From Planctomycetaceae bacterium (GTDB lineage Bacteria > Planctomycetota > Planctomycetia > Pirellulales > Thermoguttaceae): DNA of 64,000 nucleotides. The translations under genes and the position numbers were made by a program. The notes under the pieces were generated by a model. It saw only the letters and a program-made list of their open reading frames with translations. It had not been told where the DNA came from and did not search any database. Every line of letters starts with the position of its first letter. Position 1 is the stretch's first letter. Shown in pieces: positions 7,735-63,647 of this stretch. Location of the stretch: assembly GCA_031277105.1 (NCBI GenBank), contig JAISLW010000268.1:34698-98697 (forward strand), given 5' to 3'.

Positions 7735-7753
7735 ATCTACGATAGTAGAAATT
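7735..7753 (-). repeat. Cas12a-like repeat hairpin
   Basis: AATTTCTACTATCGTAGAT preceded by AGAAGTATTACTT. Confidence 0.7.
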
Positions 7754-7826
7754 AAGTAATACTTCTAAAAAAAACAAATGACCCAAGAATACAAACATAA
7801 TTCCGCATCCCAAATTCCAAAAATTT

Positions 7827-9706: not shown

Positions 9707-9725
9707 ATCTACGATAGTAAAAATT
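9707..9725 (-). repeat. Cas12a-like repeat hairpin
   Basis: AATTTTTACTATCGTAGAT. Confidence 0.5.
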
Positions 9726-9740
9726 TTAACGTTCAAGAAA

Positions 9741-10043
9741 TTATCGCCGTCTGTTTTTCACGGGAATTTTCTTTTCCTCTTCCTCATCGTTTTCGACTTT
9801 GTCTTTATCTTTGGAATTTTTGACTTTGTCGTCTTCTTCGTCTTCATCTTCGTTTTCAACGTCCTCGTCTTCATCTTCGTTTTTTACGTCTTCGTCTTCG
9901 TCGTCATTTTCAACATCTTTGTCTTTATCTTTGGAATTTTTGACTTTTTTGTTGAAAACGGACATTGAGCTGAATCCGAGCGAAGTATTAGCATCGCCTT
10001 GCAACGCCTCAAAAGCGCTAATATCGGCTAATTCTATAGACAT
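9741..10043 (-). CDS. tag-family protein with Asp/Glu/Lys-rich low-complexity body
   Basis: N-terminus LADISAFEALQ...FSSMSVFN matches the tag family; acidic DEDED repeats. Confidence 0.7.
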   Translation of the reverse strand: MSIELADISAFEALQGDANTSLGFSSMSVFNKKVKNSKDKDKDVENDDEDEDVKNEDEDEDVENEDEDEEDDKVKNSKDKDKVENDEEEEKKIPVKNRRR

Positions 10044-26406: not shown

Positions 26407-26441
26407 ATCTACAATAGTAGAAGTATATGTGGTCTTATCAC
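26407..26441 (-). ncRNA. solitary type V-A-like CRISPR repeat unit
   Basis: GTGATAAGACCACATATACTTCTACTATTGTAGAT; TCTAC-TATT-GTAGA hairpin; 9 nt before the RloA-like ATG. Confidence 0.6.
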
Positions 26442-31265: not shown

Positions 31266-31371
31266 ATATACTATAAATAAAAAGTTAAAATTTTATTGTA
31301 ATTTTGTTGAAATTATCTTGACGTTGTAACGAAACAAGTTACAACCCGTACCAACACGTCAAATAACGACG

Positions 31372-32133
31372 TTATACTTCTACTATCGTAGAGTATATGA
31401 AACTATTTTTAACTTGTTCGATACGCTCGTTTGCCATCTTGCAATATGTTTCTGAAATTTCGATACCGATGTATTTTCGTTTTAGTTGTACGGCTGCTAC
31501 GGCTGTCGTTCCGCTGCCTATGAACGGGTCAAGTATTATTTCCGCAGCCGTCGAACTGATGATACGTTTGACTAGATTAACTGGAAACGGCGCCGGATGC
31601 TTGTTATTCAACTCTTGCGTAAACGTCCAAACGTCGCCGTAACGGTTCATCGTGGGCAACAACTTAAATTGCGGTTTGCAAATCAAATAGATTACTTCAT
31701 ACGTTGGCACAAAATAACCGTCGTTAAAATTTACGCCGCCTGCACGCCGCCATATAATTATTTGACGTACAGGAAAACCGTTGACTATATCTTGACGGTC
31801 TTGCATCAAACCTGATTGAACGCGCCATTTATGATTGTAAAAAATAGCGCCGTCAGGCTTGATTAAACGCAACATCTCACGCAAACATTCACGTTGCCAT
31901 CGAACATAAACTTCATGCGGTAAATTATCATCATACGTATCGTAACCGTTGACTAGATTACTTACAAAATTCAATTTACGATTCGTTCCGTTGTTACTGC
32001 CTTTTTTGAAATTACCGCTTGTAGAATTACGCAAGTTATACGGCGGCGACGTTATTACCAAATCTATCGATTCATCTGAAAACGACCGCATAACGTCAAT
32101 ACAATCACCGCATATTATTTTGTTATACTCCAT
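31372..32133 (-). CDS. site-specific DNA methyltransferase (beta-class)
   Basis: DLVITSPPYNLRN then DPFIGSGTTAVAAVQLKRKYIGIEI. Confidence 0.8.
   Translation of the reverse strand: MEYNKIICGDCIDVMRSFSDESIDLVITSPPYNLRNSTSGNFKKGSNNGTNRKLNFVSNLVNGYDTYDDNLPHEVYVRWQRECLREMLRLIKPDGAIFYNHKWRVQSGLMQDRQDIVNGFPVRQIIIWRRAGGVNFNDGYFVPTYEVIYLICKPQFKLLPTMNRYGDVWTFTQELNNKHPAPFPVNLVKRIISSTAAEIILDPFIGSGTTAVAAVQLKRKYIGIEISETYCKMANERIEQVKNSFIYSTIVEV
31377..31393 (+). repeat. Cas12a-like repeat hairpin overlapping methyltransferase stop region
   Basis: CTTCTACTATCGTAGAG. Confidence 0.5.
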
Positions 32134-35685: not shown

Positions 35686-36228
35686 TTAATGCGTATCAAC
35701 TGCAAATCGTAAATAACCGTCGCGTTTGCCAAAAGTATCTTCTATCGTTGTATCGTTAAGTTGGTGTTCCCATTCAAAAACGCCATTCAATACAAGCGAC
35801 GCTAACGGTTCACGATAATCTACAACTTCATTTAACACTGCGCCAAAATCCTCAAATGCACACCCGTAATCTTTTAACTTCGATCTGACTTCGGATGTTG
35901 ATTTATCGTCAAACGCCCATTCAATCCGAATATTATACGGTTTCAACATAGCGTCTATTTTAGCAGGTAAATCGCTGTACAATTTGGGGAAAAACGCTAC
36001 CGTCATCCATACTAAATCCAAAAATTCACCCGCTTTGAAATTTGAAACGCAAGCGTTAATAAACTCTTCGCTGCTGCTAACGTCGTCTAACTCAACGTCA
36101 AATGTATTAAATTTTGGCGTAAACACCTTTTCTTCAGGAAACGGTTGTATAAACTCCGGACTCTTTATCCACATCGCATGAGCCGACGACGAATTCGTCT
36201 CAAAAGCATTCGATCTAATCTGTAACAT
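35686..36228 (-). CDS. FETNSSS-family protein 1
   Basis: MLQIRSNAFETNSSSAHAMWIK. Confidence 0.7.
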   Translation of the reverse strand: MLQIRSNAFETNSSSAHAMWIKSPEFIQPFPEEKVFTPKFNTFDVELDDVSSSEEFINACVSNFKAGEFLDLVWMTVAFFPKLYSDLPAKIDAMLKPYNIRIEWAFDDKSTSEVRSKLKDYGCAFEDFGAVLNEVVDYREPLASLVLNGVFEWEHQLNDTTIEDTFGKRDGYLRFAVDTH

Positions 36229-36266
36229 TTTTAACCTCCTTTAATTGAAAAGTAAAAAATTAAAAT

Positions 36267-36761
36267 TTAACTTGTATAAACGCCAAGCATAGTATGACTA
36301 CTTGCTAAACGTTTTTGAAACTCAAAAATATCGCCTTCATCGGCGTGAATTACGTTTGACGAGTCAGACAATATTAACGAAATTAACAATTCAGGCTGCT
36401 CAACTAAATCCTTCATATAATCTGCAAACATAAAATCTTTAATTGAATTAATATCGCGAACCTCTTCTTCTGTCAATATATCAAGTGTCCAATTGACGCG
36501 GATGTTATATTGTTTTAAGATTTCTGTTATCCGCTTAAACAAACTCATATTATCAAACAAACCGGCTGAAATTAGCCACGTCCAAATAACATTCAAAAAT
36601 TCACCAGATTTATACGGTTCGTATTCCCATCCTAAACTGCTGAAATGAGCGGTCATAACTTGCTCTTCCGCAAACGGCGCTATCTTGTCTTGCGTCTTAA
36701 CCCAAAACGCATGGATTGCAGATGAATTAGTTTCAAAAACACTTTGTCTGATTTGTAACAT
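36267..36761 (-). CDS. FETNSSS-family protein 2
   Basis: MLQIRQSVFETNSSAIHAFWVK. Confidence 0.7.
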   Translation of the reverse strand: MLQIRQSVFETNSSAIHAFWVKTQDKIAPFAEEQVMTAHFSSLGWEYEPYKSGEFLNVIWTWLISAGLFDNMSLFKRITEILKQYNIRVNWTLDILTEEEVRDINSIKDFMFADYMKDLVEQPELLISLILSDSSNVIHADEGDIFEFQKRLASSHTMLGVYTS

Positions 36762-36763
36762 TT

Positions 36764-37303
36764 TTAATTACGTTTCATGTAATATTTGAAGCCATCCTTT
36801 TTGATGTCTTCCGGATCGCAATAACAACCGCCGTCGTCATTACCTGTATAAAAACACGATTCATCACATAAACAAGCGGAAACAAATAATTCAGGGTTGT
36901 CTAACAATTCATCTAATATAGGTAAAAACTCATCAGCGTGATCCACATTATAATCGTTGCCGTAATCGGACGGCGTATCCAATTGATAATTCCACGTACC
37001 GATTTTAATATTGTACGGTTTTAACGCCGCTTCTATCTTGTTCTTATACGCTTCTATCGCTTGCGTATCAACTTTATCAACAGGTTGATACGATTCATAA
37101 ACAGTAAGTACCGCCGTCCAACAATAATCCACAAACCAACTAGATGAATAATGATCATAATCCCAACCGAACACGCCCAAACCAACATCCCACACTCGCT
37201 CTGTACTTGTATCAGGCTTGAAATCTTCCTTAATACAAAACGTATGCACCGACGACGAATTCGTCTCAAAAGCATTCGATCTAATTTGTAACATTTTTAA
37301 CAT
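36764..37303 (-). CDS. FETNSSS-family protein 3
   Basis: MLKMLQIRSNAFETNSSSVHTFCIK. Confidence 0.7.
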   Translation of the reverse strand: MLKMLQIRSNAFETNSSSVHTFCIKEDFKPDTSTERVWDVGLGVFGWDYDHYSSSWFVDYCWTAVLTVYESYQPVDKVDTQAIEAYKNKIEAALKPYNIKIGTWNYQLDTPSDYGNDYNVDHADEFLPILDELLDNPELFVSACLCDESCFYTGNDDGGCYCDPEDIKKDGFKYYMKRN

Positions 37304-38619: not shown

Positions 38620-39429
38620 CTAGATAATGCCGAAAGCGACTAACAAGTTTATTGCTTTTCTTGCGGCGGCGCCGTCTTGCAACATTAAATCGTTACCTGC
38701 GAAATAACTCATTAACGTATTATTCAATTCGTCTGTATTCGCCAAAACGTACAGCGCCAAACAACCTGCCGCCGTTTCAAACGCAATTTCTTGCATATCG
38801 TCGCAATGTACGCTTGCGACGTAATTTTCATTGTTCTTTTTTACTAGCGTTATTTCCAAATCGGCGTATTTATACGTTTTGCTCGTGTCTGCACCGTCCG
38901 TTTCACACTCTTCAATTAATTCCATTTCCAATTGTTTGACTATTAAATCAGCCGCCGCTAAAAAAATCGAAGCGTACATATCGTTTAACAAACGCGTTGT
39001 AGCGTCTTCGTACTCTGAAATAAATTTACGCACAGGTTCAAACGTTTCCGAAAACGTTACCGATAAATATTGACGTGCAAAATCCAATTGTAAATCGTCA
39101 ACAGTGAAACAAGACTCTAACGTTGCGTTATTACGTTCTGCTATTTTTTGGTTGATGTATTCGTATTTCTGTTCACGGTTACCTGGAATAGAAATCAAAT
39201 AATTCCTGACATTATCGTCAATTTTGGCGGCGACGCAAGCGATAGAAGCCGCATCGTCGTCGCCGTCAACAGTCGCCCAAAAATCAGTATCACTTGCAGG
39301 CGGTACGCCGCTTATCACCCACGCCTTCAAATAATCATAAAAAAGACGATGATAATTCCAATACCCGACAACTTCGTTCAAGCAACTTGCTAAACGACTG
39401 TAAACCGATTTCGATTTAATATAACCCAT
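38620..39429 (-). CDS. hypothetical protein, 269 aa
   Basis: long ORF. Confidence 0.6.
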   Translation of the reverse strand: MGYIKSKSVYSRLASCLNEVVGYWNYHRLFYDYLKAWVISGVPPASDTDFWATVDGDDDAASIACVAAKIDDNVRNYLISIPGNREQKYEYINQKIAERNNATLESCFTVDDLQLDFARQYLSVTFSETFEPVRKFISEYEDATTRLLNDMYASIFLAAADLIVKQLEMELIEECETDGADTSKTYKYADLEITLVKKNNENYVASVHCDDMQEIAFETAAGCLALYVLANTDELNNTLMSYFAGNDLMLQDGAAARKAINLLVAFGII

Positions 39430-39526
39430 AACATCTACGATAGCAAAAAATAAATATCGTTACAATAATAACGACATCATTGACATGAACAATATTGTCA
39501 ACGAATGTTTAATTCTTATACTTAAT

Positions 39527-39553
39527 ATTATATTGACATATCTGGAAGATCAA
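39527..39553 (-). promoter_or_regulatory. class 2 promoter motif
   Basis: TTGATC-N15-TATAAT. Confidence 0.55.
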
Positions 39554-39639
39554 AGTAAAAAATTAAAATTTTATTGAAATATTCTTAACGTTGCAACGAA
39601 ACAAATTACAATAATTATCAACGTATCAAGAATGACGCT

Positions 39640-39694
39640 ATACTTCTACTATTGCAGAAGCAGAAGTATTATTTAATTTCTACTATCGTAAGAT
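39640..39694 (+). repeat. two-hairpin element ending in Cas12a-like repeat
   Basis: ATACTTCTACTATTGCAGAAGcagAAGTAT then AATTTCTACTATCGTAAGAT. Confidence 0.7.
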
Positions 39695-39696
39695 TT

Positions 39697-40236
39697 TTAG
39701 TCGTCGGTAAAACCTACATGTAAAAAAGCGCTGCCGATTACAGGTTGACCGTTTGCCGATTTAACAACTAACCAATAAGTACCTGCTGGAGTACATTCAT
39801 TTCCTGGCCAAATATAAAGGCTTTGGGACTCATAGTAATCCATATTGACTATATTTTTATTGCCGTCGTATATCTCAATTAAAATTTCAGGACTCGGTTG
39901 AAGATCGATTATCCAAAGTAGAGCCAAATGATCTGGATCAACAACTGTAATTGTAAATCTAGTATAGTAAGCGGCAACTCCGTCTAATAGTATCGGTTTC
40001 AATTCCGCATCGAAATGTGCAAAATCACGCCAAAATTCAGCCGTATCAAATTCGTCCGGTTCTGGTTCTGGCTCTGGTTCCGGCGTTGTTTGTAACCATC
40101 CTGTGTCAATTAACGCTTGTATCGTATCCGACTCTGTCATTACAGGATTATCAGTACGGTCAATATAACGCTTGACCTCGCGCAATATCACATCCGCATT
40201 TTCCCTATCTATATTTTTTTTTGTAGTTACACTCAT
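39697..40236 (-). CDS. putative virion-module paralogue with PEPEPEPEP linker
   Basis: KRYID..TIQALIDTGWL similar to the 4623..5357 product (KIYID..VMELLIDTGFL); beta-rich C-terminus. Confidence 0.5.
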   Translation of the reverse strand: MSVTTKKNIDRENADVILREVKRYIDRTDNPVMTESDTIQALIDTGWLQTTPEPEPEPEPDEFDTAEFWRDFAHFDAELKPILLDGVAAYYTRFTITVVDPDHLALLWIIDLQPSPEILIEIYDGNKNIVNMDYYESQSLYIWPGNECTPAGTYWLVVKSANGQPVIGSAFLHVGFTDD

Positions 40237-40278
40237 TCTGATTTATTTTAGGTACTCTTAACGTTAAAACTAAAACAA

Positions 40279-41409
40279 TTACAACTTGTGTTCTAGCAGA
40301 TACGCATTAGAAATTGTCTTGAACGAGTATTGCGAAAACTCGCCGCGCTCTTTGTACACCAGCCCTTCACGTATTTTGTCGGATAATTTGCTCCGCCCAA
40401 ACGCCGTATCGACCAGTTCCTTAACCGACGTTTCGTCCAAGCACAACGCATAAGACTCGCATATTACCGGAACATGTTTAAGCCCCAACCAATTCACAAT
40501 ATCGTACCGGACATACGCGTCCACATATTTCTGCGTGTCAATATTGAACACGTCGAAAACGTAGAGATCGACGTCGTTCAAGCCCAGCCGATTATCCGAA
40601 ACATTCGTTCCAACGATCTCGCCCTGTATAGCCAAATTAATATGCAACTCTCTGCACAATTCGGGCAACTTTTCGTGGAGGTTATATTTGACGGACATTT
40701 CCTCGTAAATACTTCTAGAAAAACCAAACCGTTTTTCAAATTCGTCCTTGAAAAATATACGCTTGATCCAATGCTTAAACTTCGCAAAAAGGCTTCTGTA
40801 AAATTCCGTACAAGCGACCTCATAATTCCGCGAGCAAACCCCGAAATGATTACATCGGTAGTAAATCGTTACCGAAGTGCCGTCTAGTTTTTCAGTAACC
40901 TCGTACTGCTTACCGTTCAGAGCCTCCAAACGGACTGTGTCAAAAGACTGAATCCGTTCTTGGTCTGTCTTGCGGATAAACGCAGGGAAACGCCGCATCG
41001 GACTGCCGCCAATCATACGCGTAGGGCGATTATCGGTAGGTTCGTAAAGTTTAACTTTGAGTAGTTCCGTTACGTCGTCGCCTTCTTTTGGTTTGGTAAT
41101 TTCGGGGAAGTCAGATAGCGGCAACAGCAGACCTTGCGATATTTGTTTTTTCAATTTAATCGTCCGCAATCTGTAGCCGTCCGTACCGTTCATCTTTTTG
41201 TCAGAGCGTCCGTCTAAAAATGCGTAGCGTTCTTCTTTTGGCAAGAACGAATCGATCTCAAAGTACACGCCGAAATCGCCGACGTTAAAATCGCCTTTTT
41301 TCGCTACGCATACCCAACCGTTAGTCGTCATTGTTGCGACTTCGATAAAGTCCGCGCCTTCAATCGGGCGTAGTTCTTTTACTTTCGTTACAGTTGCTAA
41401 TTTTCTCAT
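40279..41409 (-). CDS. RNA ligase (Rnl5/DraRnl-like)
   Basis: motif I YEVTEKLDGTSVTIYY; N-terminal OB-like domain; QGEIVG; EGLVYK. Confidence 0.75.
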   Translation of the reverse strand: MRKLATVTKVKELRPIEGADFIEVATMTTNGWVCVAKKGDFNVGDFGVYFEIDSFLPKEERYAFLDGRSDKKMNGTDGYRLRTIKLKKQISQGLLLPLSDFPEITKPKEGDDVTELLKVKLYEPTDNRPTRMIGGSPMRRFPAFIRKTDQERIQSFDTVRLEALNGKQYEVTEKLDGTSVTIYYRCNHFGVCSRNYEVACTEFYRSLFAKFKHWIKRIFFKDEFEKRFGFSRSIYEEMSVKYNLHEKLPELCRELHINLAIQGEIVGTNVSDNRLGLNDVDLYVFDVFNIDTQKYVDAYVRYDIVNWLGLKHVPVICESYALCLDETSVKELVDTAFGRSKLSDKIREGLVYKERGEFSQYSFKTISNAYLLEHKL

Positions 41410-41430
41410 ACTTTTATGTTAATTTTTATG

Positions 41431-42096
41431 TTAATTACTTTTGCTCTGCGGTAAATATACGGTCTCTTCCCACGCTTGCGTCCAATCAAATCCTTGACTG
41501 GTAAAATTCTCATAAAATCTATTGATAAAATCATCTGCATCGATATAATCTATTCCGAAATTTTTGGCACAGCGTTTATCACTATCTGAAGATTGACCTT
41601 TACGACCGGATGCGTCGCCTACCATTATCATTTCGCGTTTATGGAATTTTTGCGGCAAGTGGCGGGCTATAAAAAAGTCTAACATTCCCGTATTCGGTTT
41701 ATGCATCCAGTCGTCAGGGTCATTAGCATCGCAACAAATGCCGTCAACTTCGATTTCTTTTTGCGTTGTCGCGTAACGTTCTTTAATCCGCTTATCATGT
41801 CCGCAATAATCTTCAATTGCAGCACAAACGAATTGTAATTTTTTATCAAAAGAGCTTTCTTTCATAAACCCTTTTTCGATACCGCCTTGATTGGATGTTA
41901 TCCAGATATATTCAACGTCAAAAGTAGCGGCAAAATTACATATCGCTTCAACGACGTGTGAGCGAAACTGCATATCGCCAATATAGTGAGGAGTCGTATA
42001 ACCCCACTTTTGCGCCTCCACAGATTCAATAATTGTTCCGTCAAGATCAAGAAACAATACTTTTTTACGTTTTGTACGATCTAATTTTACTGTCAT
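41431..42096 (-). CDS. HAD-family polynucleotide 3'-phosphatase-like protein
   Basis: LFLDLDGTIIES, ITSNQGGI, KPNTGMLD, MVGDASGRKGQSSDSDKRCAKNFGIDYID. Confidence 0.65.
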   Translation of the reverse strand: MTVKLDRTKRKKVLFLDLDGTIIESVEAQKWGYTTPHYIGDMQFRSHVVEAICNFAATFDVEYIWITSNQGGIEKGFMKESSFDKKLQFVCAAIEDYCGHDKRIKERYATTQKEIEVDGICCDANDPDDWMHKPNTGMLDFFIARHLPQKFHKREMIMVGDASGRKGQSSDSDKRCAKNFGIDYIDADDFINRFYENFTSQGFDWTQAWEETVYLPQSKSN

Positions 42097-42121
42097 TGAC
42101 CATCCTCCTTATATTGTAAAG

Positions 42122-42427
42122 TTAGCCTAATCGTAAATTGACTATTTTATGAACAGATAATAAATGATTTAGTTTTGTTCTTGTGTATTCAAAATACCCT
42201 AACGCTGACAAATAGCGATAGCAACAATCTTTCGTATTATGCATTTTCAACGATTCCAAACATTTGTCGCGTAACTCTCCACGCATGTTATAACTGCATA
42301 TCGCTTCATACACTTCATCGGGAACTTTGTCCTTGACTTGATCGCGTTGGATTGACCATCCGTTCATTAAGCAATGAACGATATAATCTTGGTACTTCCA
42401 CATAGGATCTACTATTTGACCACTCAT
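42122..42427 (-). CDS. hypothetical protein, 101 aa
   Basis: ORF. Confidence 0.5.
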   Translation of the reverse strand: MSGQIVDPMWKYQDYIVHCLMNGWSIQRDQVKDKVPDEVYEAICSYNMRGELRDKCLESLKMHNTKDCCYRYLSALGYFEYTRTKLNHLLSVHKIVNLRLG

Positions 42428-42503
42428 TATTTATTACTTGTTTGTTTGTTGTAAATTAACGTTACTTACTACGCCGTAGGTAATATTTAATTCTTATAGT
42501 TAC

Positions 42504-42530
42504 ATTCTATTGATAAAATGAAAATATCAA
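42504..42530 (-). promoter_or_regulatory. class 2 promoter motif
   Basis: TTGATA-N15-TAGAAT. Confidence 0.5.
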
Positions 42531-42539
42531 AGTAAAAAA

Positions 42540-42887
42540 TTAAAATTTTGTAGATATTTCTGCTGTTATAGATTTCATAAATTCATGATCTTGACCGCAA
42601 GTAAGTCTCGCCAAATGTACGGAGGGCGGCGTTAATCGCACGTTTGGTATTACCGTAAAACCGTCTTTCACAAAACATTCTAATTGATGATAAATTATTT
42701 CGCAAAATCGCTTGCAAGCGGAATCAAAATCCGAAAACGACTCAACTAATTGGACAACGAAACTGACGTTAAATTCGCAATTTTCAGCGGTCTGTTTAAT
42801 AACCCCAATTTTGTATCCGTTTAATTGTGCATCGAAATTACAAGGTATTAACGGGTTTTGTACAAATTCCAAATAAAAAACAACCAT
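42540..42887 (-). CDS. orphan-family protein (IGVI-type domain)
   Basis: DAQLNGYKIGVIKQ...NVSFVV pattern shared with several neighbours. Confidence 0.5.
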   Translation of the reverse strand: MVVFYLEFVQNPLIPCNFDAQLNGYKIGVIKQTAENCEFNVSFVVQLVESFSDFDSACKRFCEIIYHQLECFVKDGFTVIPNVRLTPPSVHLARLTCGQDHEFMKSITAEISTKF

Positions 42888-42939
42888 AAAAATTCCTTTT
42901 CAAGATAATTTAATTTCTACTGTTATACGTAAGATCAAA

Positions 42940-43014
42940 AAACGGCGGCGGGACTTGAACCCGCATCTCAGTCATAACTGATCGCGCGATATGTTGCCAT
43001 TACACCACGCCGTT
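42940..43014 (-). tRNA. tRNA or tRNA-like gene, anticodon undetermined
   Basis: AACGGCG/CGCCGTT acceptor, GTGT-AATGGCA-ACAT D arm, GCGGG-TTCAAGT-CCCGC T arm all pair; 26-nt central region lacks a canonical anticodon arm. Confidence 0.65.
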
Positions 43015-43018
43015 TCCA

Positions 43019-43065
43019 ATCTACGATAGTAATTCTACAATAGTAGAAATATAAGGTCTTATCAC
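43019..43065 (-). ncRNA. solitary type V-A-like repeat plus half repeat upstream of tRNA
   Basis: GTGATAAGACCTTATATTTCTACTATTGTAGAATTACTATCGTAGAT. Confidence 0.6.
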
Positions 43066-43067
43066 TA

Positions 43068-43091
43068 TATGCCAATTAAAAACAGAAAATT
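43068..43091 (-). promoter_or_regulatory. class 1 promoter motif
   Basis: AATTTT-N12-GGCATA directly before the repeat unit and tRNA. Confidence 0.65.
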
Positions 43092-43140
43092 AATGAATAT
43101 TTCTATTTAATTTTAACGTTTGGCAAATGAATTGATTTCT

Positions 43141-44415
43141 CTAATCTGCTATTTTGGAGACCATTAGGCACTCGCCTGCTTTATTTGTTTTTAGCATAGT
43201 TATAAACGGATCAAATAGTTTGAAATCGGTCAATACTATATCAAATCGTGCCATTGCCAAATTATCCGTACTTACGTATTTTGACATCGGCATAAAGTTA
43301 AAAACTTTTACGCTTTCCTGTTTACTTACATCCGCTACGTAACTCGTAAACATATTTCGTAAATAATTTGTAATATCAGCGCTATCGCGTATAGTTACAA
43401 CACTTGCAAACTGCATCGTAACGTTAGTCAGTATTACATTGTCTGCCAATGGGACTATTAGCGTTTCAGGTAACATATACGGTTCGCCAAATACTTGGAA
43501 TAAATCATAAACGGGATTAACTTGCAATTCATTATATTCTAGCCATTTCAAATGTATTCCGTAACCAGCCGTCAATAGTTTGCGGGCGTATTTTGCTAAT
43601 TCTGATTTGTTTTTATCAAGTCTGGCGACTACTTTATGAATATCCGTCAAGGTCGATGCAGGATAAATGCTGTTATAACGCTCAATTACTCTCGCTTGTT
43701 CTGGTTTCACGCGTAAATAAGTGTTACAAGCCAACGTTATATCTGCTACTCCTTTTTGTAATAAATCTGATAGTCCTTTGTTTGGCAAAGTGTAAACGAC
43801 AATTCCGCTGTCTTTGTCGTACTTTTTAATACTGTCTATAAATTGCGAAACTTGTTGTTCTATGCTATCAAGGTCATTACTCAACGGTACAATATTAGGC
43901 GTAATTTCTGCTGTTTGCGTTTGACTTGGCGGCTGCGTTTTTTCGGGCGTATTGTCAAGAACATCTACAGCAATAGTATTATCTGATTTGTCTTTTTCAG
44001 TACAAATCTCTAAACTATCATATTCCGTTTTATTACAAATCGTATCAATTTGACTAGCGCCTATATTTTGAATTTCTGATTTAGGCGTTACAACTGTTTT
44101 GAGTTTTGGTTGAAAATCTGTTTTGATTTCTGGTTCTAGTTGAAAATCTGTTTTAACTACAACTCGTCGTCCTAAAAGTTCTTTTATAAATTGAGCCGCT
44201 TCGTCTTTAATATAATTGACCATAACGTCAAAATCGGTTGTACCTGAAAACATACGGTCATAGTTGTACGTTGTTACTAACCAGTAAGGCAATTGTCCGA
44301 TAAAAAGACGCTGCTGGATACAACCGTAATACAGATCATTTATCGCAAAACTAAAATAAGGTCTCGCGTATTTATCGACTGATTGCCTAAAATGGACAAT
44401 AAATTCATCGTTCAT
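43141..44415 (-). CDS. hypothetical protein, 424 aa
   Basis: long ORF with Gln/Thr/Pro-rich central linker. Confidence 0.6.
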   Translation of the reverse strand: MNDEFIVHFRQSVDKYARPYFSFAINDLYYGCIQQRLFIGQLPYWLVTTYNYDRMFSGTTDFDVMVNYIKDEAAQFIKELLGRRVVVKTDFQLEPEIKTDFQPKLKTVVTPKSEIQNIGASQIDTICNKTEYDSLEICTEKDKSDNTIAVDVLDNTPEKTQPPSQTQTAEITPNIVPLSNDLDSIEQQVSQFIDSIKKYDKDSGIVVYTLPNKGLSDLLQKGVADITLACNTYLRVKPEQARVIERYNSIYPASTLTDIHKVVARLDKNKSELAKYARKLLTAGYGIHLKWLEYNELQVNPVYDLFQVFGEPYMLPETLIVPLADNVILTNVTMQFASVVTIRDSADITNYLRNMFTSYVADVSKQESVKVFNFMPMSKYVSTDNLAMARFDIVLTDFKLFDPFITMLKTNKAGECLMVSKIAD

Positions 44416-44417
44416 AA

Positions 44418-44525
44418 TTAAATTTCCTTTTGTTTAATTTTGTGTAGATCGCTGTCCTTGAACGAATTAATTATCGACGCAGCACGGTCAATAGTTGCTT
44501 CAGACATAATGTTTCGTTTACTCAT
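44418..44525 (-). CDS. small protein, 35 aa
   Basis: manual ORF MSKRNIMSEATIDRAASIINSFKDSDLHKIKQKEI just upstream of the 43141..44415 gene. Confidence 0.4.
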   Translation of the reverse strand: MSKRNIMSEATIDRAASIINSFKDSDLHKIKQKEI

Positions 44526-44593
44526 TTGTTTAACAGATTAAAAAAATCATAAATAAAGCGGAACAGCAATGTAGTATTATCATACTTATATGA

Positions 44594-44617
44594 TATGCCG
44601 ATTAAAAACAGAAAATT
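44594..44617 (-). promoter_or_regulatory. class 1 promoter motif
   Basis: AATTTT-N12-GGCATA. Confidence 0.6.
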
Positions 44618-44644
44618 AGTCAAACAAAAAATAAAAAGAAATTA

Positions 44645-45619
44645 TCAACTGTAAAGAATGTTTTCCAGCGATTGAAACGGTTTTGCTAAAGATTGGTAAA
44701 TGCAGTCGGTATCTTCTGTAACATTTTCCACTGAACAAAAACCATCTTTATCAGCGGTAACGTAATAATTGCAACAATCAGTAATTTTTTCTTTAATACT
44801 GAATACTTCAATCGCCCGCATGAAATACGGGCTGTATGTTGTCAATAAAATAGTCAAATTAAACGCTTTTTGCAATAATACTAACGCTTTGGCAAATTGA
44901 ATTTGCCATTCGGGATGTAAATGAATTTCGGGTTCGTCTAAAATCAACACATCTTCCTCTTGTATTGCATGGTTTTCTAAAAGGCGTTTAAGGATTAAAA
45001 ACGATTTCATTCCAGCTGAAACGTTAACGAGCTCTAATGATTCGTTAAGGTCTTTATAACGGTAACCTAATTGACCGTATTCTTTTTGTTCAAAGTTACC
45101 GTCAACAATGGAATTTAGCGCTGACCAAACTTTATTTAGTTTTTTTTCTGTAACTACTTCTTGTATCTCACTCTCTTTATTTTTAGAATGAAGCAATACG
45201 CGGTGCAAAGATTCTCTAGGATGCGTAATTGAAGTACGATACGAATCGATATAAAAAGCGTTATGAACAAGTCCAATATTATTTTCAAATGAAGAGCATC
45301 GTTTCTTGTTAAAATTGACGTTAATAGAATTGCCTTTAATGGTCAATTTCACCGTACTCTCTTCTGATAGATAATTGACGTGAACAAACTGATATGCAAA
45401 CTCTTTTCCAAAATTGTTTGAAATTATCTTTTTCTTAATTTCATCTTCGCTATCGTGTTGCATCACGTCATTGAGTTCCATAAAAGAGTTAAACGTACAA
45501 TACAGCGCTTTTCCAAACGTGCTTTTACCTGTATCGTTATTACCTGCGATTACAGTAATGCCTTGCAATTCTATTTCGGCTTCTCTGATTTTCCCAATAT
45601 TTTTGATTTTAAGAAGCAT
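44645..45619 (-). CDS. AAA ATPase (OLD/AAA_21-like)
   Basis: LLKIKNIGKIREAEIEL, Walker A IAGNNDTGKSTFGKAL, Walker B VLILDEPEIHLHPEWQ. Confidence 0.7.
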   Translation of the reverse strand: MLLKIKNIGKIREAEIELQGITVIAGNNDTGKSTFGKALYCTFNSFMELNDVMQHDSEDEIKKKIISNNFGKEFAYQFVHVNYLSEESTVKLTIKGNSINVNFNKKRCSSFENNIGLVHNAFYIDSYRTSITHPRESLHRVLLHSKNKESEIQEVVTEKKLNKVWSALNSIVDGNFEQKEYGQLGYRYKDLNESLELVNVSAGMKSFLILKRLLENHAIQEEDVLILDEPEIHLHPEWQIQFAKALVLLQKAFNLTILLTTYSPYFMRAIEVFSIKEKITDCCNYYVTADKDGFCSVENVTEDTDCIYQSLAKPFQSLENILYS

Positions 45620-45907
45620 AAAACTTAATCCAGTTATTTTCGGGCGTTAATTTCTCTCCCGATTCGTATTTATTTAATTGAAACACGACGGCAAAGTACC
45701 GTCGGGATAATCTTCATACTCTGCGTCATATAGCCGCATTTCATCCATTAACCTGCGTACCCGCCTGTCCAGCGCCGTTAAGCGTTCTTCTACCGTCGTA
45801 GGTCTAGGGAACACAAACGGCACAAACTCGCATTATTTTTACCTGTTTTTGTAACCGTCTTTATACTGTCCGGCTTCTTGCCCGTTTGTGTGTACTTTTC
45901 GCTTTTC

Positions 45908-46663
45908 TTAAACTTGCGGAACGTCAAACGTATAAGATTTAAGGAATGCCCGTTCTCTCCAACATTCGGGGACGTATCTTGTTATTTCGCCTGTCTTATT
46001 TATAACGGGGGACATCACTAAATACTCGCCCGTGGTGACTTCAACGCAACGATCTAGGTCATATTTTATTATAACCTTGTGCAAATTACGCGGATTAATC
46101 AAAACGGTGTAAAGTCTAGGGTTATCTAATAACTGATCTACAATCCATAATTGCCCACCTATAAATTCGCGCAACCCTGACATGTAAGTATGCGGCGTAT
46201 GATCTGCGGGCGGATTAAATAAATCTAGCGTTACGTCCGGTTCGTATTTTAATACGCGGGCGCTGAGTAACTCTAAATTAAATCCATAGCGGACAGCGCA
46301 GGGTATATCGGTATTTTGCGGCTTGCCGATTTCCATCAAGCGGTGACTTTTAACATAGGGCGCTACTTCGCCTGACACAAGAACGCGGAATGTCTTGTGT
46401 TTATCAATCCATTCGCCGTTAAGCGTAGGCGGATTATGTACAAGATAATCACCCGCTTCTAATTTTAAGTACGTGCGCGCCGTACCGTCAATGTATAAAA
46501 AAACCGTATCGCCGATTAAAGATAAACTACTCGGCGATACGGCTACTAATTTCTCCATGTTAGTTTTATCTGCGGGTATTTTATAAATATCGCAATACGG
46601 CGAACTAAACAAATACCGCTTTTCAATCGCTCTCAATATCTCCATTTTTTCCCTCCATAACAT
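45908..46663 (-). CDS. hypothetical protein, 251 aa
   Basis: long ORF. Confidence 0.55.
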   Translation of the reverse strand: MLWREKMEILRAIEKRYLFSSPYCDIYKIPADKTNMEKLVAVSPSSLSLIGDTVFLYIDGTARTYLKLEAGDYLVHNPPTLNGEWIDKHKTFRVLVSGEVAPYVKSHRLMEIGKPQNTDIPCAVRYGFNLELLSARVLKYEPDVTLDLFNPPADHTPHTYMSGLREFIGGQLWIVDQLLDNPRLYTVLINPRNLHKVIIKYDLDRCVEVTTGEYLVMSPVINKTGEITRYVPECWRERAFLKSYTFDVPQV

Positions 46664-46712
46664 CTGTTAATAACTGGGATGCTTTTAACTGTAAATTTAG
46701 ATTACTTACGTA

Positions 46713-47192
46713 TTAGGTGACTATACACAAGCCGCCGTGAACATTCGGGCAATATTCATACTCGCGGTTTTTAAGCAATTTATCTATATCCCATTTATAC
46801 AATTCGACGGCGTTACTATATTTGTTTAGCGATTTACTACTTGATACTAATTGACTTGTTTTGATTAATTTTTGGCAATAATCTAAACCTTGGTTTAACG
46901 CAGTTATTTCATCTTTTATCTGTTCGATAGGCGGAAACCGTTCTACGGTTGAACTCCTGTACGCTGCCATATCAAGTACATCCTCGTAACCGCTATCATC
47001 CAGAGACCGCAAAAATATAAAATCCCATTCGCATATTTTTGCATCCCAATAAAGCCAAATAGTCAAATACGAATTATGATAAAAATTATATCTGTACAAA
47101 TTAGACTTAATCAATATTATCGGCGGATTATTATCCATCCACCATGCGTCAAAAATTAAATTAGCAGTCGATGCAATTAGTTTATCCATCAC
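46713..47192 (-). CDS. orphan-family protein
   Basis: WLYWDAKICEWDFIFLRSLDDSGYEDVLD resembles 48664..49179; AAGGAG RBS. Confidence 0.6.
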   Translation of the reverse strand: MMDKLIASTANLIFDAWWMDNNPPIILIKSNLYRYNFYHNSYLTIWLYWDAKICEWDFIFLRSLDDSGYEDVLDMAAYRSSTVERFPPIEQIKDEITALNQGLDYCQKLIKTSQLVSSSKSLNKYSNAVELYKWDIDKLLKNREYEYCPNVHGGLCIVT

Positions 47193-47211
47193 AAACTCCT
47201 TCTTATTCGTT

Positions 47212-47244
47212 ATCTACAACAGTAGAAATATAAGGTCTTATCAC
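47212..47244 (-). ncRNA. solitary type V-A-like CRISPR repeat unit
   Basis: GTGATAAGACCTTATATTTCTACTGTTGTAGAT. Confidence 0.65.
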
Positions 47245-47246
47245 TA

Positions 47247-47270
47247 TATGCCGATTGGCAACGGCAAATT
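47247..47270 (-). promoter_or_regulatory. class 1 promoter motif
   Basis: AATTTG-N12-GGCATA directly before the repeat unit. Confidence 0.65.
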
Positions 47271-47303
47271 AGTCAAATTGTTGCAGTATCGTTCAGGTCT
47301 CGT

Positions 47304-47702
47304 TTACAACGTACAAGCAATATGTAACTCAATCGCTTCATCGTGGCGACTACGCCATAATTTTTTATAATCCTCATAGACGTTTGCGTCGCATAAATTG
47401 TCTTCGCTAAAGTGTTTTAACTGGTCAACAACGGTTTCAAGTCTATTAGTCAAATCTATACAAAAGCCCGTAACTGCATCAACTGTCGCAAAATTCATAT
47501 ATGGATTAGTTCCAGATTTGCGGATTTTGAATTCGTTTTTCAATTTCGTCAATAAGTTGTTGTTTAATTCGCAGGCGCATTCGCATCTGTCAGTATTTGA
47601 TCTGGTTACTAATTTAACTTGTTCCATCGCCTGCTTCAAATCGGCAAATAAACGGTCAATTAAATTAAAAACATCGCACTCTTTAATTCGTTCTTGTGTC
47701 AT
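47304..47702 (-). CDS. hypothetical protein, 132 aa
   Basis: ORF with promoter-leader cassette upstream. Confidence 0.5.
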   Translation of the reverse strand: MTQERIKECDVFNLIDRLFADLKQAMEQVKLVTRSNTDRCECACELNNNLLTKLKNEFKIRKSGTNPYMNFATVDAVTGFCIDLTNRLETVVDQLKHFSEDNLCDANVYEDYKKLWRSRHDEAIELHIACTL

Positions 47703-47790
47703 TTTTCACTAACCTTTTACTGTTTGTTTGTTTGTTGTAAATTAAACGTTACTTGCTACGCCGTAAGTAATGTTTAATTCTTATAGTTAT

Positions 47791-47817
47791 ATTCTATTGA
47801 TAAAAAGGAAAGGTCAA
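47791..47817 (-). promoter_or_regulatory. class 2 promoter motif
   Basis: TTGACC-N15-TAGAAT. Confidence 0.55.
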
Positions 47818-47846
47818 AGTAAAAAATTAAAATTTTATTAAAATAA

Positions 47847-47870
47847 TATGCCATTGCTCGCGTTAGAATT
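47847..47870 (-). promoter_or_regulatory. class 1 promoter motif
   Basis: AATTCT-N12-GGCATA. Confidence 0.6.
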
Positions 47871-48015
47871 AGGTAAGATTAGAAGTATTTTTAGAATTTT
47901 TTTTGGGGGGAGATAATATTGGCATTATAATGTAAACATTTCGCTGACTTGCTTTTTGTATCGCGTTACGATTTGTAACGGTGGTATTCGATTGAGCAAC
48001 GTTGCCAGCGAATGT

Positions 48016-48330
48016 TTACGTTTTTGTTTTGCCGTTTAATATTATGTCGCCCCATAAATCGCACGGATCACAACAATTCATGTTATCGGCGTTCAATTCT
48101 AATTCAACGCCGATTAAATGTTCGGTCAAACGAGTCAATGATTCATTTATCATTTTTGCGTTTTGCCAAAGCGACGCTGCTGAGTTATCTAGTTCCTGTT
48201 TATTTGCGTTAGTAAAAGAATACGCTGCTATCGATCTGGCAATGCATCGAATGCTGAAACAATAATCGTTAAGTTCACGTATTATTTGGAGCGTTGTCGC
48301 TTTACGCGTCGGGTTGCGTTTGACGGGCAT
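48016..48330 (-). CDS. hypothetical protein, 104 aa
   Basis: ORF. Confidence 0.45.
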   Translation of the reverse strand: MPVKRNPTRKATTLQIIRELNDYCFSIRCIARSIAAYSFTNANKQELDNSAASLWQNAKMINESLTRLTEHLIGVELELNADNMNCCDPCDLWGDIILNGKTKT

Positions 48331-48362
48331 ATTATTTTCTTTCTATCGTAGATATTTTGTTC

Positions 48363-48662
48363 CTAGCGGGACAAATTTTTGTTGTCTAATTTTTCTAATA
48401 TTTCATTATACATTTGAAACCGTTTTGACCTATTTTCTAGCCATTCTGTATCTATGTCGATTTCGTACAACCATCGGTCAATGCGGTTTTGTAGCTCTGT
48501 TTCGTTTTCGTATTCTATTAGCCCTATTGTTTCCGTATGTAGATTGTGGATAAATTCTATTAACGGTTTTATTTTGGCTATTTTATGTTTGCCGTACCAT
48601 GCTATTTTTTCTAAATGGGCTGCTATCTTGGCACAAACAATTGTTTCATCGGTTTCAGTCAT
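48363..48662 (-). CDS. hypothetical protein, 99 aa
   Basis: ORF. Confidence 0.45.
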   Translation of the reverse strand: MTETDETIVCAKIAAHLEKIAWYGKHKIAKIKPLIEFIHNLHTETIGLIEYENETELQNRIDRWLYEIDIDTEWLENRSKRFQMYNEILEKLDNKNLSR

Positions 48663-48663
48663 T

Positions 48664-49179
48664 TTATTCTAGTTCTTTCGCTCTTTGTGCGAAAGCGGTT
48701 AATATTACGTTGCGGTAACGGTTTAACGATAATTGAGAGCCAAACGCAACGACTTTTTTATCAGCGTTGACCGCTTCGCACCATCTAATCGCTTGTTCTA
48801 TAACGTAAATTTCGTATAATATTATTTCTTTATCGGCTTCTCTGCCTAACCCGTCGAAATCGTATTGATAAATTGGAATGAAACCGTTATCGTCAAATCG
48901 TAACAACAACCATTCCCATCTTGCCGCATTGAAATCGAATTCTAACCAGATTGACAATCCGATTTTCGCTTTTTCTTTGCGTAACCAATGAAAAAACGGG
49001 TTGACCATAACAACAGGTCGCATGCCCAACGATTTGTAAATTACATCCGACGTACTTATCACCATCGATTGTAATTTTACTTGGTCGTATGTTAAAATTT
49101 TATCCGACTCGTCAATTATCATTCCCGATGAATCTACTAAATCGTCAGTAATCATATATTCAGTTACAGGCGGATTCAT
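48664..49179 (-). CDS. orphan-family protein (paralogue of 46713..47192)
   Basis: WLEFDFNAARWEWLLLRFDDNGFIPIYQYD. Confidence 0.55.
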   Translation of the reverse strand: MNPPVTEYMITDDLVDSSGMIIDESDKILTYDQVKLQSMVISTSDVIYKSLGMRPVVMVNPFFHWLRKEKAKIGLSIWLEFDFNAARWEWLLLRFDDNGFIPIYQYDFDGLGREADKEIILYEIYVIEQAIRWCEAVNADKKVVAFGSQLSLNRYRNVILTAFAQRAKELE

Positions 49180-49607
49180 TTTTCACTCCTTTCATTTTCT
49201 TTTATAGTTGCATCTACAGGTGGCGGTAGATGTGTAACGTAATACGTTTTTATGAACGTTTGGCATTTTTCAAACGTTCCTGCAAACAACTTTTCACAAG
49301 TTGGGTCGTCGTCCATGATCTCCCAACCAGATCGATGGATATACTTTAAGTAAAATCCGATTTCATTATCGATTGGAAACTTATAAACTCTGTAAATTGA
49401 GTTCACAGAGTTTTCCCATATTTGTCTAGTAAAGTTTGTCAAGTACGTGTCGCCGTAATTACGGCATTCCGCAAACGTACCTGTGAATAGGATTTCGCAT
49501 TTAGACGCGTACTCTGCGTTTGACCACCGCTCGGCGGGAATGTACGTTAGTCTAAACCCTATCGCAGTATCCACAGGAATCTTGTAAACTCGATATTGAT
49601 CTTCCAT
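49176..49607 (-). CDS. hypothetical protein with internal tandem duplication
   Basis: YRVYKIPVDTAIGFRLTYI...LFTGTFAECR and YRVYKFPIDNEIGFYLKYI...LFAGTFEKCQ. Confidence 0.6.
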   Translation of the reverse strand: MEDQYRVYKIPVDTAIGFRLTYIPAERWSNAEYASKCEILFTGTFAECRNYGDTYLTNFTRQIWENSVNSIYRVYKFPIDNEIGFYLKYIHRSGWEIMDDDPTCEKLFAGTFEKCQTFIKTYYVTHLPPPVDATIKENERSEK

Positions 49608-49689
49608 TTCACTAACCTTTTACTGTTTGTTTGTTGTAAATTAAACGTTACTTACAACGTCGTAAGTAATGTTTAATTCTTATAGTTAC

Positions 49690-49716
49690 ATTCTATTGAT
49701 AAAATGAAAATGTCAA
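49690..49716 (-). promoter_or_regulatory. class 2 promoter motif
   Basis: TTGACA-N15-TAGAAT. Confidence 0.55.
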
Positions 49717-49745
49717 AGTAAAAAATTAAAATTTTATTAAAATAA

Positions 49746-49769
49746 TATGCCATTGTTCGCGTAAGAATT
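49746..49769 (-). promoter_or_regulatory. class 1 promoter motif
   Basis: AATTCT-N12-GGCATA. Confidence 0.6.
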
Positions 49770-49858
49770 AGGTAAGATTAGAAGTATTTTTAGTTTTTTT
49801 TTTGAGATACTCTTAACGAAAACATCTATAATATTTACCCGCACGTCAAGTAACGACG

Positions 49859-50605
49859 TTATACTTCTACTATTGCAGAAGTATCATTAATTTTTACTAT
49901 TGTAGATCTGTCGTGTATGTTATTGTTCTTATTTTGTGTGATGTTTTTTTGGTTTTCGTATTCGAAGTGGCAAGCAAACATTAAGTTACAAAGGGCGTGC
50001 GAAAGATGCGGCTCACTTTTATCATCTTGTAAAAACAAAAAAATATGACGTATAGCATGATTTAATATATCATCGGTAGGAAATCCTTTTTTCCAATTAT
50101 TTTTTCCGTACTTAGTCTCGCCTTGTTTGAACACCATTGCAGCAAGTTCCAACGCTTTCGGCGGCAATAAATGATACGCTACATTATCTGCATCAATTGA
50201 ACGTTTAGCGCCAGATGCGAATTGTTTCATTTTTATTTCGTTTTCTGTTTTCATTTTCGGTTCTGTTTTTAGTTCAGCGTCGTCAAAAGGTTCAGCGTCA
50301 ACGCAAAAATACTCTTGGGAAAAGCAATCAATAATAATAGGTACATGCGGATATAATTCTTGTAACTTATTGACGACATCCTGAAAAGTTATAAAAAAAA
50401 CTGTACCCGATTGATTTGACAAATTTTTTAGAATCCACACATCATTCGACGCACGCTGTCTTATATACTCTTTTTTTAATTTCATAACAACTTCTTTTTT
50501 TCCTCGATTGTAACGTGAAATCACGTGTACGTTTGGTCGGACAGCATTTATTTCTAGGTAATCGTCGAGCGTATCGTCAGGCGATTGTTTAATTATAGAT
50601 TTCAT
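49859..50605 (-). CDS. orphan N-terminal domain fused to DUF5664-like (dATP/dGTP diphosphohydrolase-like) domain
   Basis: FASGAKRSIDADNVAYHLLPPKALELAAMVFKQGETKYGKNNWKKGF..LNHAIRHIFLFLQ. Confidence 0.5.
   Translation of the reverse strand: MKSIIKQSPDDTLDDYLEINAVRPNVHVISRYNRGKKEVVMKLKKEYIRQRASNDVWILKNLSNQSGTVFFITFQDVVNKLQELYPHVPIIIDCFSQEYFCVDAEPFDDAELKTEPKMKTENEIKMKQFASGAKRSIDADNVAYHLLPPKALELAAMVFKQGETKYGKNNWKKGFPTDDILNHAIRHIFLFLQDDKSEPHLSHALCNLMFACHFEYENQKNITQNKNNNIHDRSTIVKINDTSAIVEV
49861..49907 (+). repeat. two-hairpin element ending in Cas12a-like repeat
   Basis: ATACTTCTACTATTGCAGAAGTATCATTAATTTTTACTATTGTAGAT. Confidence 0.75.
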
Positions 50606-50699
50606 ATAATTAGGGGAAGGGTAATGTGTATTGTTTTTAGGGACAAGGGAAACAATTTGAAAATACGATCTTTAATTATGTATTCCGTAATCCCTTGTT

Positions 50700-50993
50700 T
50701 TATGTATTTTCGCAAACAAATAAGTAATTTTTATATGCTGATTGTGTTCTCATCCAGTCAATTGTATCTTCAAATGTTTTAAATCGCCAAGTTGTCCATT
50801 GGCGAGGAGTAGGACTAATGATAAGAGCGAACGGTTTCGTTGGATCGCTTAACTTTGCTACCTCTGGATCGTTTTCGTACAAAAATCCTAACAGATGTTT
50901 ATGACCGTCTAACTCTTGGAAAGTCAATTGATACGTACTTATATGTCCTATAATTCCGTCAAGTCTTTCGATTAATATGCAGGGTAATCCCAT
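50700..50993 (-). CDS. hypothetical protein, 97 aa
   Basis: ORF. Confidence 0.45.
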   Translation of the reverse strand: MGLPCILIERLDGIIGHISTYQLTFQELDGHKHLLGFLYENDPEVAKLSDPTKPFALIISPTPRQWTTWRFKTFEDTIDWMRTQSAYKNYLFVCENT

Positions 50994-51035
50994 AATTTAA
51001 TTAATGTTTTTATTATTCCCTTTACTTGTTTCATT

Positions 51036-51260
51036 TTAATTCTCTACTGGGTTTAACGTTATTTTTGTTACAAATTCCATATATTTTTTAACAGCGAAAC
51101 TGAATATTTCGTTACAAAAATCCAATTCAACGTAGCGTTCAAATAGTTTGTCATTCTGGATTAAATCGTTTATTTTTACTGTTACGATATTATTTCTATG
51201 TTCCTGTAAAAGTTTATCGTACTTTGGGACATATTTTTTACAAAACGATATTAAGTCCAT
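51036..51260 (-). CDS. orphan domain protein (MDLISFCKKYV type)
   Basis: N-terminus matches the 62887..63510 product (MNLIEFCKRYVSNYENRL). Confidence 0.5.
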   Translation of the reverse strand: MDLISFCKKYVPKYDKLLQEHRNNIVTVKINDLIQNDKLFERYVELDFCNEIFSFAVKKYMEFVTKITLNPVEN

Positions 51261-51280
51261 TTTATATTTTCCTTTCTTTT

Positions 51281-52009
51281 TTAATTATTTAGTTGGAGCA
51301 TCGTAGTAGAAAAACCAAACTGGATTGAGTACGCGATCAAGAACAAACAAATCGGGATTAAATCTGATTCGGCGATCCAATTGGAAGTTACAAAATCGGG
51401 TAAATTGGAAGTTACAAGTAACGTTAATGAGTTTATACGGAAAAGCCCGTTTTTACTTTGAGCGTTAAACGATTGGGAATTATTCAGCAAGTAGGAACAC
51501 AATTTCGTAATGGCTGCTGCAAACGCAATCCGTGAAAAATCGGTATAGCCTTGAGTACTGCCGTAAATAACAATTTCTTTTATCGGTTTTCCGTCATGTT
51601 TCAAAACATGGTCGGAACAAACGATAATAGAATCACGATATGAGTATAGCTTGGTTTTGCCTGATTTTTTGCAATATTTTGAAGCGGTTCTATAAAAATT
51701 TTGGAATAAATCGAATTGCGCGTCAGTCAAACATCCTTCTTTATTCAATTTGATTTTGTACTGTTTGCGTAACGTTGACCACACAGATTTTACGATAGGA
51801 CGCAACAACGAACCTATCTTAAATTTATCCGTATTGCAATCAACAAAAATACTGTCAAACGCAAAAGGACTGACAATCCCCAAAGCGTCAACAATATCAA
51901 ATAGACTCGCATCTGAATTATCAGTCAAACATTTGTACTGTTCCCAAGCGTAAGGTAAAACAATTACGCTAGTTTCACCACTCTGATTCTTTTGACTAGA
52001 CATGTTCAA
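51281..52009 (-). CDS. hypothetical protein, 242 aa
   Basis: long ORF. Confidence 0.55.
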   Translation of the reverse strand: MNMSSQKNQSGETSVIVLPYAWEQYKCLTDNSDASLFDIVDALGIVSPFAFDSIFVDCNTDKFKIGSLLRPIVKSVWSTLRKQYKIKLNKEGCLTDAQFDLFQNFYRTASKYCKKSGKTKLYSYRDSIIVCSDHVLKHDGKPIKEIVIYGSTQGYTDFSRIAFAAAITKLCSYLLNNSQSFNAQSKNGLFRINSLTLLVTSNLPDFVTSNWIAESDLIPICLFLIAYSIQFGFSTTMLQLNN

Positions 52010-52093
52010 ACTCCATAAAATATAAATTTACTGCGCGCTCATCGATCAAATTAATTTTTCTAAATCAACCTGATTGAATAGTTACTAATTTAA

Positions 52094-52117
52094 TATGCCA
52101 ATAAGCGGCGAAAAATT
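52094..52117 (-). promoter_or_regulatory. class 1 promoter motif
   Basis: AATTTT-N12-GGCATA upstream of 52009 start. Confidence 0.6.
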
Positions 52118-52496: not shown

Positions 52497-52498
52497 TT

Positions 52499-52867: not shown

Positions 52868-52894
52868 TTTTATCTCATTTCATTTCATTTCATT

Positions 52895-53197: not shown

Positions 53198-53215
53198 TTT
53201 TTAATCTCCTTTGTT

Positions 53216-53784: not shown

Positions 53785-53795
53785 ATAATTACAAT

Positions 53796-54520: not shown

Positions 54521-54608
54521 TTTTGTTTTCGGGTTTTAATCGGAATTACTTCTTTTACTTTCGTTATCGTTACTAATTTTCTCATAAGTTAAAATTTGAT
54601 TGAAATAA

Positions 54609-54632
54609 TATGCTGTTGACCGTATTGGAATT
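54609..54632 (-). promoter_or_regulatory. class 1 promoter motif
   Basis: AATTCC-N12-AGCATA. Confidence 0.45.
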
Positions 54633-54734
54633 ATTACAAAACCAAAAATATTTTTAGATTTTTTTGGATAAATAATATTGGCATTGAAACGAAACTGGTT
54701 ATAATAATTATCAACTCGTCAAGTAACGACGTTA

Positions 54735-54780
54735 TACTTCTATTTTTGTAGAAGTAACATTAATTTCTACTATTGTAGAT
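54735..54780 (+). repeat. two-hairpin element ending in Cas12a-like repeat
   Basis: TACTTCTATTTTTGTAGAAGTA then AATTTCTACTATTGTAGAT. Confidence 0.8.
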
Positions 54781-57720: not shown

Positions 57721-57723
57721 CTG

Positions 57724-63599: not shown

Positions 63600-63647
63600 A
63601 TCTACCATAGTAGAAATTAAATAATACTTTTGCAATAGTAAAAGTAT
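63600..63647 (-). repeat. two-hairpin element ending in Cas12a-like repeat
   Basis: ATACTTTTACTATTGCAAAAGTATTATTTAATTTCTACTATGGTAGAT. Confidence 0.75.

Follow-up and report, generated by a model that had tools for sequence, protein, structure and literature searches.

Candidate Cas12a decoy repeats, multiplied in a planctomycete provirus and placed once before a tRNA-like gene

On the minus strand between positions 43091 and 42939 of the 64,000-nucleotide stretch of DNA analysed here (the window), a promoter box leads into a mimic of the Cas12a-type repeat, behind which come a second, truncated repeat and, 4 nt further on, a tRNA-like gene (Table 1). The locus raises the question of what such a repeat does outside a CRISPR array, and whether the tRNA behind it serves as a 3′-maturation device for a decoy repeat RNA, as a first-pass annotation had proposed.

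The cassette and its tRNA-like gene

The layout given in the first-pass annotation (AATTTT-N12-box, repeat, half repeat, TGGA, acceptor stem at 43014) is confirmed base by base. A promoter-type box in front is borne out as well, in that the 43033 unit follows a copy of a recurrent phage promoter-type motif, TAATTTT-N12-GGCATAT, found elsewhere on the contig (C529; e.g. window 52093, 57123 and 63558); the contig has 31 intergenic GGCATA[TAC] boxes, 30 of them on the gene (minus) strand. A covariance model trained on 16 host Cas12a repeats alone, with no phage sequence, matches the unit over its full length and scores its sister at 47212 higher, in agreement with the claimed mimicry. The 5′ half of the 43033 unit resembles host repeats (p 0.007, gapped scoring). 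As a mimic the unit ranks among the weaker, with A replacing U after the stem and the second repeat broken; of the doubling described earlier, the second repeat is present in truncated form. The exact match with the 47212 unit is shorter than the 26 nt claimed: 24 nt counted from GTGATAAG are identical, followed by an A/G difference, or 32 nt if the shared GGCATATA is included. Folding of the 43033 leader alone, as RNA, does not exceed that of shuffles (z 0.4).

The gene behind the repeats is recognised as a tRNA by ARAGORN and, above threshold, by Rfam, as the annotation had it. Its acceptor and T arms are good and its anticodon arm is poor (a C.T mismatch and a G.T, together with a long variable region); the other tRNA on the contig scores 73.9 bits, against 42.6 bits for this gene. 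Given the poor anticodon arm and the low score, the label ‘tRNA-like’ is apt. Skipping-rope RNA (RF02924) was rejected as an identity for the gene, the weak likeness lying below the gathering threshold (23.5 vs 36.7 bits).

Acceptor and T arms should be enough for RNase P. Since both stems are apparently intact here, RNase P should free a leader ending ...GUAGAUUGGA. Such release is expected of any tRNA leader, so it is not specific to a decoy. That the tRNA is a dedicated 3′-maturation device for a decoy is mechanistically plausible and compatible with the decoy explanation developed below, yet we consider it rather unlikely. Only 4 nt separate the second repeat from the acceptor stem, and the poor anticodon arm would suit a role in processing over one in decoding. 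However, the argument is one of position, and it has no parallel: of the Cas12a-type units at 80 other viral loci, none has a tRNA in the 150 nt downstream of it, and the repeat-tRNA cassette is absent from 35 related genomes. Cas12a binding to the handle needs no defined 3′ end, which also speaks against such a device, as does the placement of two other units before mRNAs, namely 47212, which shares the leader, and 26407, a related unit. The simplest reading has a mobile leader module inserted before the tRNA-like gene as before mRNAs, with RNase P release as a by-product.

Table 1. Features of the cassette and the other repeat units in the window.
Feature	Position	Strand	Remarks
AATTTT	43086..43091	-	Upstream element of phage promoter-type motif TAATTTT-N12-GGCATAT
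Gap between AATTTT and GGCATATA		-	12 nt
GGCATATA box	43066..43073	-	Copy of recurrent GGCATA[TAC] box
Cas12a-repeat mimic, full length, in tRNA leader, GTGATAAGACCTTATATTTCTACTATTGTAGAA	43033..43065	-	Host-repeat model 22.6 bits, E 0.016, model 1-36/36
Truncated second repeat TTACTATCGTAGAT	43019..43032	-	Lacks first stem bases
TGGA linker	43018-43015	-	
Acceptor stem AACGGCG	starts 43014	-	
tRNA-like gene, called tRNA-Ile(GAT)	42939..43015	-	ARAGORN; Rfam tRNA 42.6 bits
Sister unit behind same GGCATATA box	47212..47244	-	In 5′UTR of 46713-47189 gene; 28.4 bits, E 0.0009, full length
Full-length unit	26407..26441	-	9 nt upstream of ATG, AbiL-like operon; 28.1 bits, E 0.001
Unit AGAAGTATTACTTAATTTCTACTATCGTAGAT	7735..7770	-	27.3 bits
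Unit with U.G stem pair	9707..9748	-	Runs directly into terminator-like hairpin with T run; 18.9 bits
Unit, 5′ part GTCAAATAACGACG	31358..31392	+	Behind TTGACG-N16-TACAAC; overlaps 3′ end of minus-strand methylase gene
Unit with two G.U pairs	39433..39448	-	Just upstream of ATG of 38620-39429 gene
Double unit	39624..39694	+	Longer hairpin, then Cas12a-type repeat
Double unit, 5′ part GTCAAGTAACGACG	49845..49907	+	
Double unit	54718..54780	+	Behind TTGGCA-N16-TATAAT; second repeat is top model match, 29.2 bits, E 0.0006
Double unit	63600..63645	-	Behind TTGACC-N15-TATAAT; 26.1 bits

Repeat units on the provirus and Cas12a in its host

The window lies within a 171,649-base contig in a 5.19-Mb assembly. 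The contig carries head, portal-like, DNA polymerase and helicase genes, and its right end has an integrase gene, then a cyclophilin gene and a gene with ankyrin repeats. Among 20 other genomes of the host genus, 18 have homologues of the cyclophilin gene; the right-end integrase together with chromosomal genes conserved in the genus makes the contig best read as a provirus. A DNA-level search with window 39000-55000 gives no known phage relatives. Elsewhere the window holds a long stretch in which a 13-nt unit, ATCGCTAACGTTT, is repeated in tandem (57207-57721), three paralogous proteins in tandem with the N-terminus MLQIRxxxFETNSS (35686-37303), and members of a small-protein family with the N-terminus MKNQNIADISVFESxQ (13534-14504 and 22777-23133), which has many copies, including at other sites on the contig, some of them opposite in strand to other genes.

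The hairpin TTCTACTNTNGTAGA, at up to 2 mismatches and with palindromes scored on both strands, occurs 26 times in the window against 1.12 expected, and no shuffle gives more than 4; the whole contig has 24 hairpin matches, against 0 in a reversed control. At up to 1 mismatch the contig has 11 units, including 6 exact ones. In all, about 12 unit loci are dispersed over 60 kb of the 172-kb contig, in two recurrent settings. In the first, a unit stands close behind a GGCATA-type box or similar leader, directly 5′ of a gene (the 47212 protein, the 43033 tRNA-like gene and the 26407 AbiL-like operon). In the second, hairpin pairs 27-28 nt apart lie behind sigma70-like promoters with 11 of 12 consensus bases, against a background of 0.7% (54738, 63600 and contig 101732); weaker promoter matches lie upstream of units 31378 and 39644. 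Several plus-strand units run antisense to the ends of genes and have no obvious terminator. Degenerate copies are present at 32422, 63533 and L006:10014-10049. The AbiL-like operon itself (window 23227-26441, minus strand) scores 259 bits for AbiLi, 57 bits for AbiLii and 240 bits for PDC-S33, and its first gene starts 9 nt past the Cas12a-repeat-like hairpin. The 46713-47189 protein was considered as an anti-CRISPR candidate, and its predicted structure (pLDDT 35) is unusable.

The units share detailed features with Cas12a repeats. All have TNTN loops, as do most host repeats, and in several the handle is the same as that of the host's own arrays; several first hairpins end GTAGAA and are imperfect handles. 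Stem changes comprise 6 G.U and 3 mismatches on the repeat strand vs 3 and 6 on the other, which are small numbers. The host-repeat model has 12 matches on the provirus contig, several spanning all 36 positions; covariation among these matches is uninformative, with a single pair varying (U.G vs C.G). In a related phage of 168 kb (73% identity in the capsid protein) the model finds 0 matches, and the genes of that relative miss most of the unit-rich region, which precludes comparing orthologous sites; 1.13 Mb of other related phage DNA holds one borderline match (15.4 bits). Under gapped scoring, used because an ungapped matrix is too strict, three unit types have 5′ parts that align with those of host repeats (p 0.007-0.016 each), and exact 5′-part patterns were found in none of the viral contigs. 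This likeness carries a partial confounder in units 43033 and 47212, where GTGATAAG overlaps a conserved downstream position of the promoter motif; part of the likeness of GTGATAAG to the repeat 5′ end could therefore reflect promoter constraint.

The assembly also contains the system that is mimicked. Contig C56 encodes a complete 1426-aa Cas12a (TIGR04330, 919 bits), with pilB- and guaA-like genes upstream and 19 repeats GTCAATAAAGACTCAAAAATTTCTACTATTGTAGAT downstream, C214 has a 44-repeat array, and C377 a second Cas12a; all three contigs are tied to the host genome solely by binning. DUF1559 prepilin-like proteins, which are suggestive of Planctomycetota, occur on other contigs of the assembly. 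Related genomes have Cas12a with similar repeats whose 5′ parts vary (e.g. GTCGATAACGACGATAAAATTTCTACTATTGTAGAT and GTCGATAAGACTTTTTTAATTTCTACTATTGTAGAT), and among related genomes a lone Cas12a-type repeat lies ~200-640 nt 5′ of genes with Cas12a-like N-termini (L147:1636-1652 and L141:4506-4522, both minus strand). On the host chromosome, a solitary Cas12a-type repeat (L011:5294-5310; G000:C499:11293-11309, plus strand) stands behind a TTGACC-N16-TATAAT-like promoter, ~400 nt upstream of a 1327-aa gene and a DruE-like helicase (Druantia-like). Host spacers from two arrays give short, mostly low-complexity matches to the provirus, none of them over a whole spacer, which we count against the decoy explanation; against related phages, no spacer match exceeds 16 nt.

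Explanations for the units

We favour, with a probability of about 0.7, the explanation that the units are RNA anti-CRISPR decoys (Racrs, or solitary repeat units, of type V-A), multiplied in a planctomycete provirus. Supported here are the mimicry, a multiplicity beyond chance, an intact Cas12a and matching arrays in the assembly, promoter-type boxes and the lack of spacers. Judged on sequence, the units qualify as candidate type V-A solitary units: they match the Cas12a repeat of a plausible host and lie outside an array, on a contig where no Cas12a (Cpf1) gene is found. Predicted promoters, recognised by consensus, lie close upstream of units as in Racrs, some units having none, and the host, with C56, C214 and C377 linked to it by binning, has a CRISPR-Cas system of the same subtype. 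Points against this explanation are the imperfect handles of some units, 43033 included, the plus-strand units antisense to genes, and the overlap of GTGATAAG with the promoter motif.

We infer transcription of the units, Cas12a binding and inhibition, and RNase P release, as follows. Phage promoters would transcribe the units, either into small RNAs or into the leaders of longer transcripts, and each unit RNA would fold into a Cas12a 5′ handle with the stem UCUAC/GUAGA and the loop UNUN. The Cas12a of the host would bind these RNAs, probably cutting 5′ of the hairpin, and would thereby be loaded with RNAs that lack a useful guide; the decoy dose would be raised by the many copies. In the 43033 cassette, the decoy would form the 5′ leader of the tRNA-like transcript, from which RNase P, cleaving in its ordinary way, would release it with a short 3′ end. 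If so, the provirus would present natural decoy amplification, with about a dozen RNA anti-CRISPRs against Cas12a in one virus, directed at several types of repeat, in a host phylum where few phages have been studied. It would also allow the effects of copy number, of pairing in tandem and of RNase P-defined ends on RNA-based Cas12a inhibition to be tested.

Alternatively, the leaders could be cis switches, in which Cas12a binds or cuts the hairpin and represses the downstream gene, and loss or titration of Cas12a permits expression. Units 26407, 39433 and 47212 lie 3-22 nt upstream of start codons, the gene behind 26407 belongs to a defence operon, and the solitary unit on the host chromosome precedes a Druantia-like operon, all of which would suit a switch. 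Against it, the majority of units lie outside 5′ gene leaders, and no guide sequence is found; among 20-mers behind the units, none has a target at up to 2 mismatches on the contig or on the few host contigs covered, module copies excepted. Moreover, two defence genes near units are a small number, and the 400-nt gap at the Druantia-like operon speaks against direct translational control there. We regard cis switches as improbable. Still less probable is a broader scheme in which Cas12a on leaders keeps the AbiL-like operon and other genes low, its loss or titration releases them, and the tRNA-like gene frees a sensor or decoy RNA. If true, Cas12a-repeat leaders would tie gene expression to CRISPR state.

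It is just as improbable as this scheme that the palindromes are phage DNA operators or mRNA-stability hairpins that merely resemble Cas12a repeats. The motif is near-symmetric and intergenic, adjoins promoters, and sits in larger repeated intergenic modules, as such elements might; yet the UNUN loop, and in many units an AATTT flank, are kept beyond the palindrome, three 5′ parts are repeat-like, and the host-repeat model matches the units but, of hairpins in related phages, only the borderline one.

Least probable, by a narrow margin, is that the units are what is left of a mobile repeat or of captured CRISPR arrays, decayed and without function. The degenerate copies and dispersed modules might point that way, but spacer-length spacing is absent, stems are preserved with G.U changes, and units stand behind promoters with no recognised cas genes nearby.

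Comparison with known systems

RNA anti-CRISPRs (Racrs) are viral solitary repeat units that occupy Cas proteins (Camara-Wilpert et al. 2023, PMC10651486). In that work, inhibition of Moraxella Cas12a was shown for three V-A Racrs and dose dependence for RacrIF1 (PMC10651486). Like Racrs, the provirus units are repeat mimics borne by a virus and led by promoters, they lack spacers and cas genes, and their subtype matches that of the host; no cas genes are recognised near the units, and a Cpf1 family search of the whole assembly gives no match on the provirus contig. Whereas inhibition by V-A Racrs was assayed, the provirus units are known from sequence.

The host-genus V-A arrays, with a 36-nt repeat ending ATTTCTACTATTGTAGAT, share the handle and a similar 5′ part with the provirus units, which differ in having no spacer periodicity; the units are single or in pairs spaced 27-28 nt apart. 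A CRISPR array was accordingly rejected as their identity, regular repeats with unique spacers not being found. In two viral contigs, Cas12a-type repeat pairs lie just 40-42 nt apart (L177:4613-4673, minus strand; L191:4628-4686, plus strand). Like phage tRNA genes, the tRNA-like gene at 42939-43015 has good acceptor and T arms, and it differs from them in its poor anticodon arm.

Unlike known Racrs, the provirus units form ~12 dispersed loci, several of them tandem pairs, with three repeat-like 5′ types; some lie in 5′ gene leaders and one before a tRNA-like gene. Among the matches listed, 31 other viral records, picked by exact match to the unit, have one exact copy each. Decoys of this kind are already known, usually one per virus, and the provirus stands out by its number of units.
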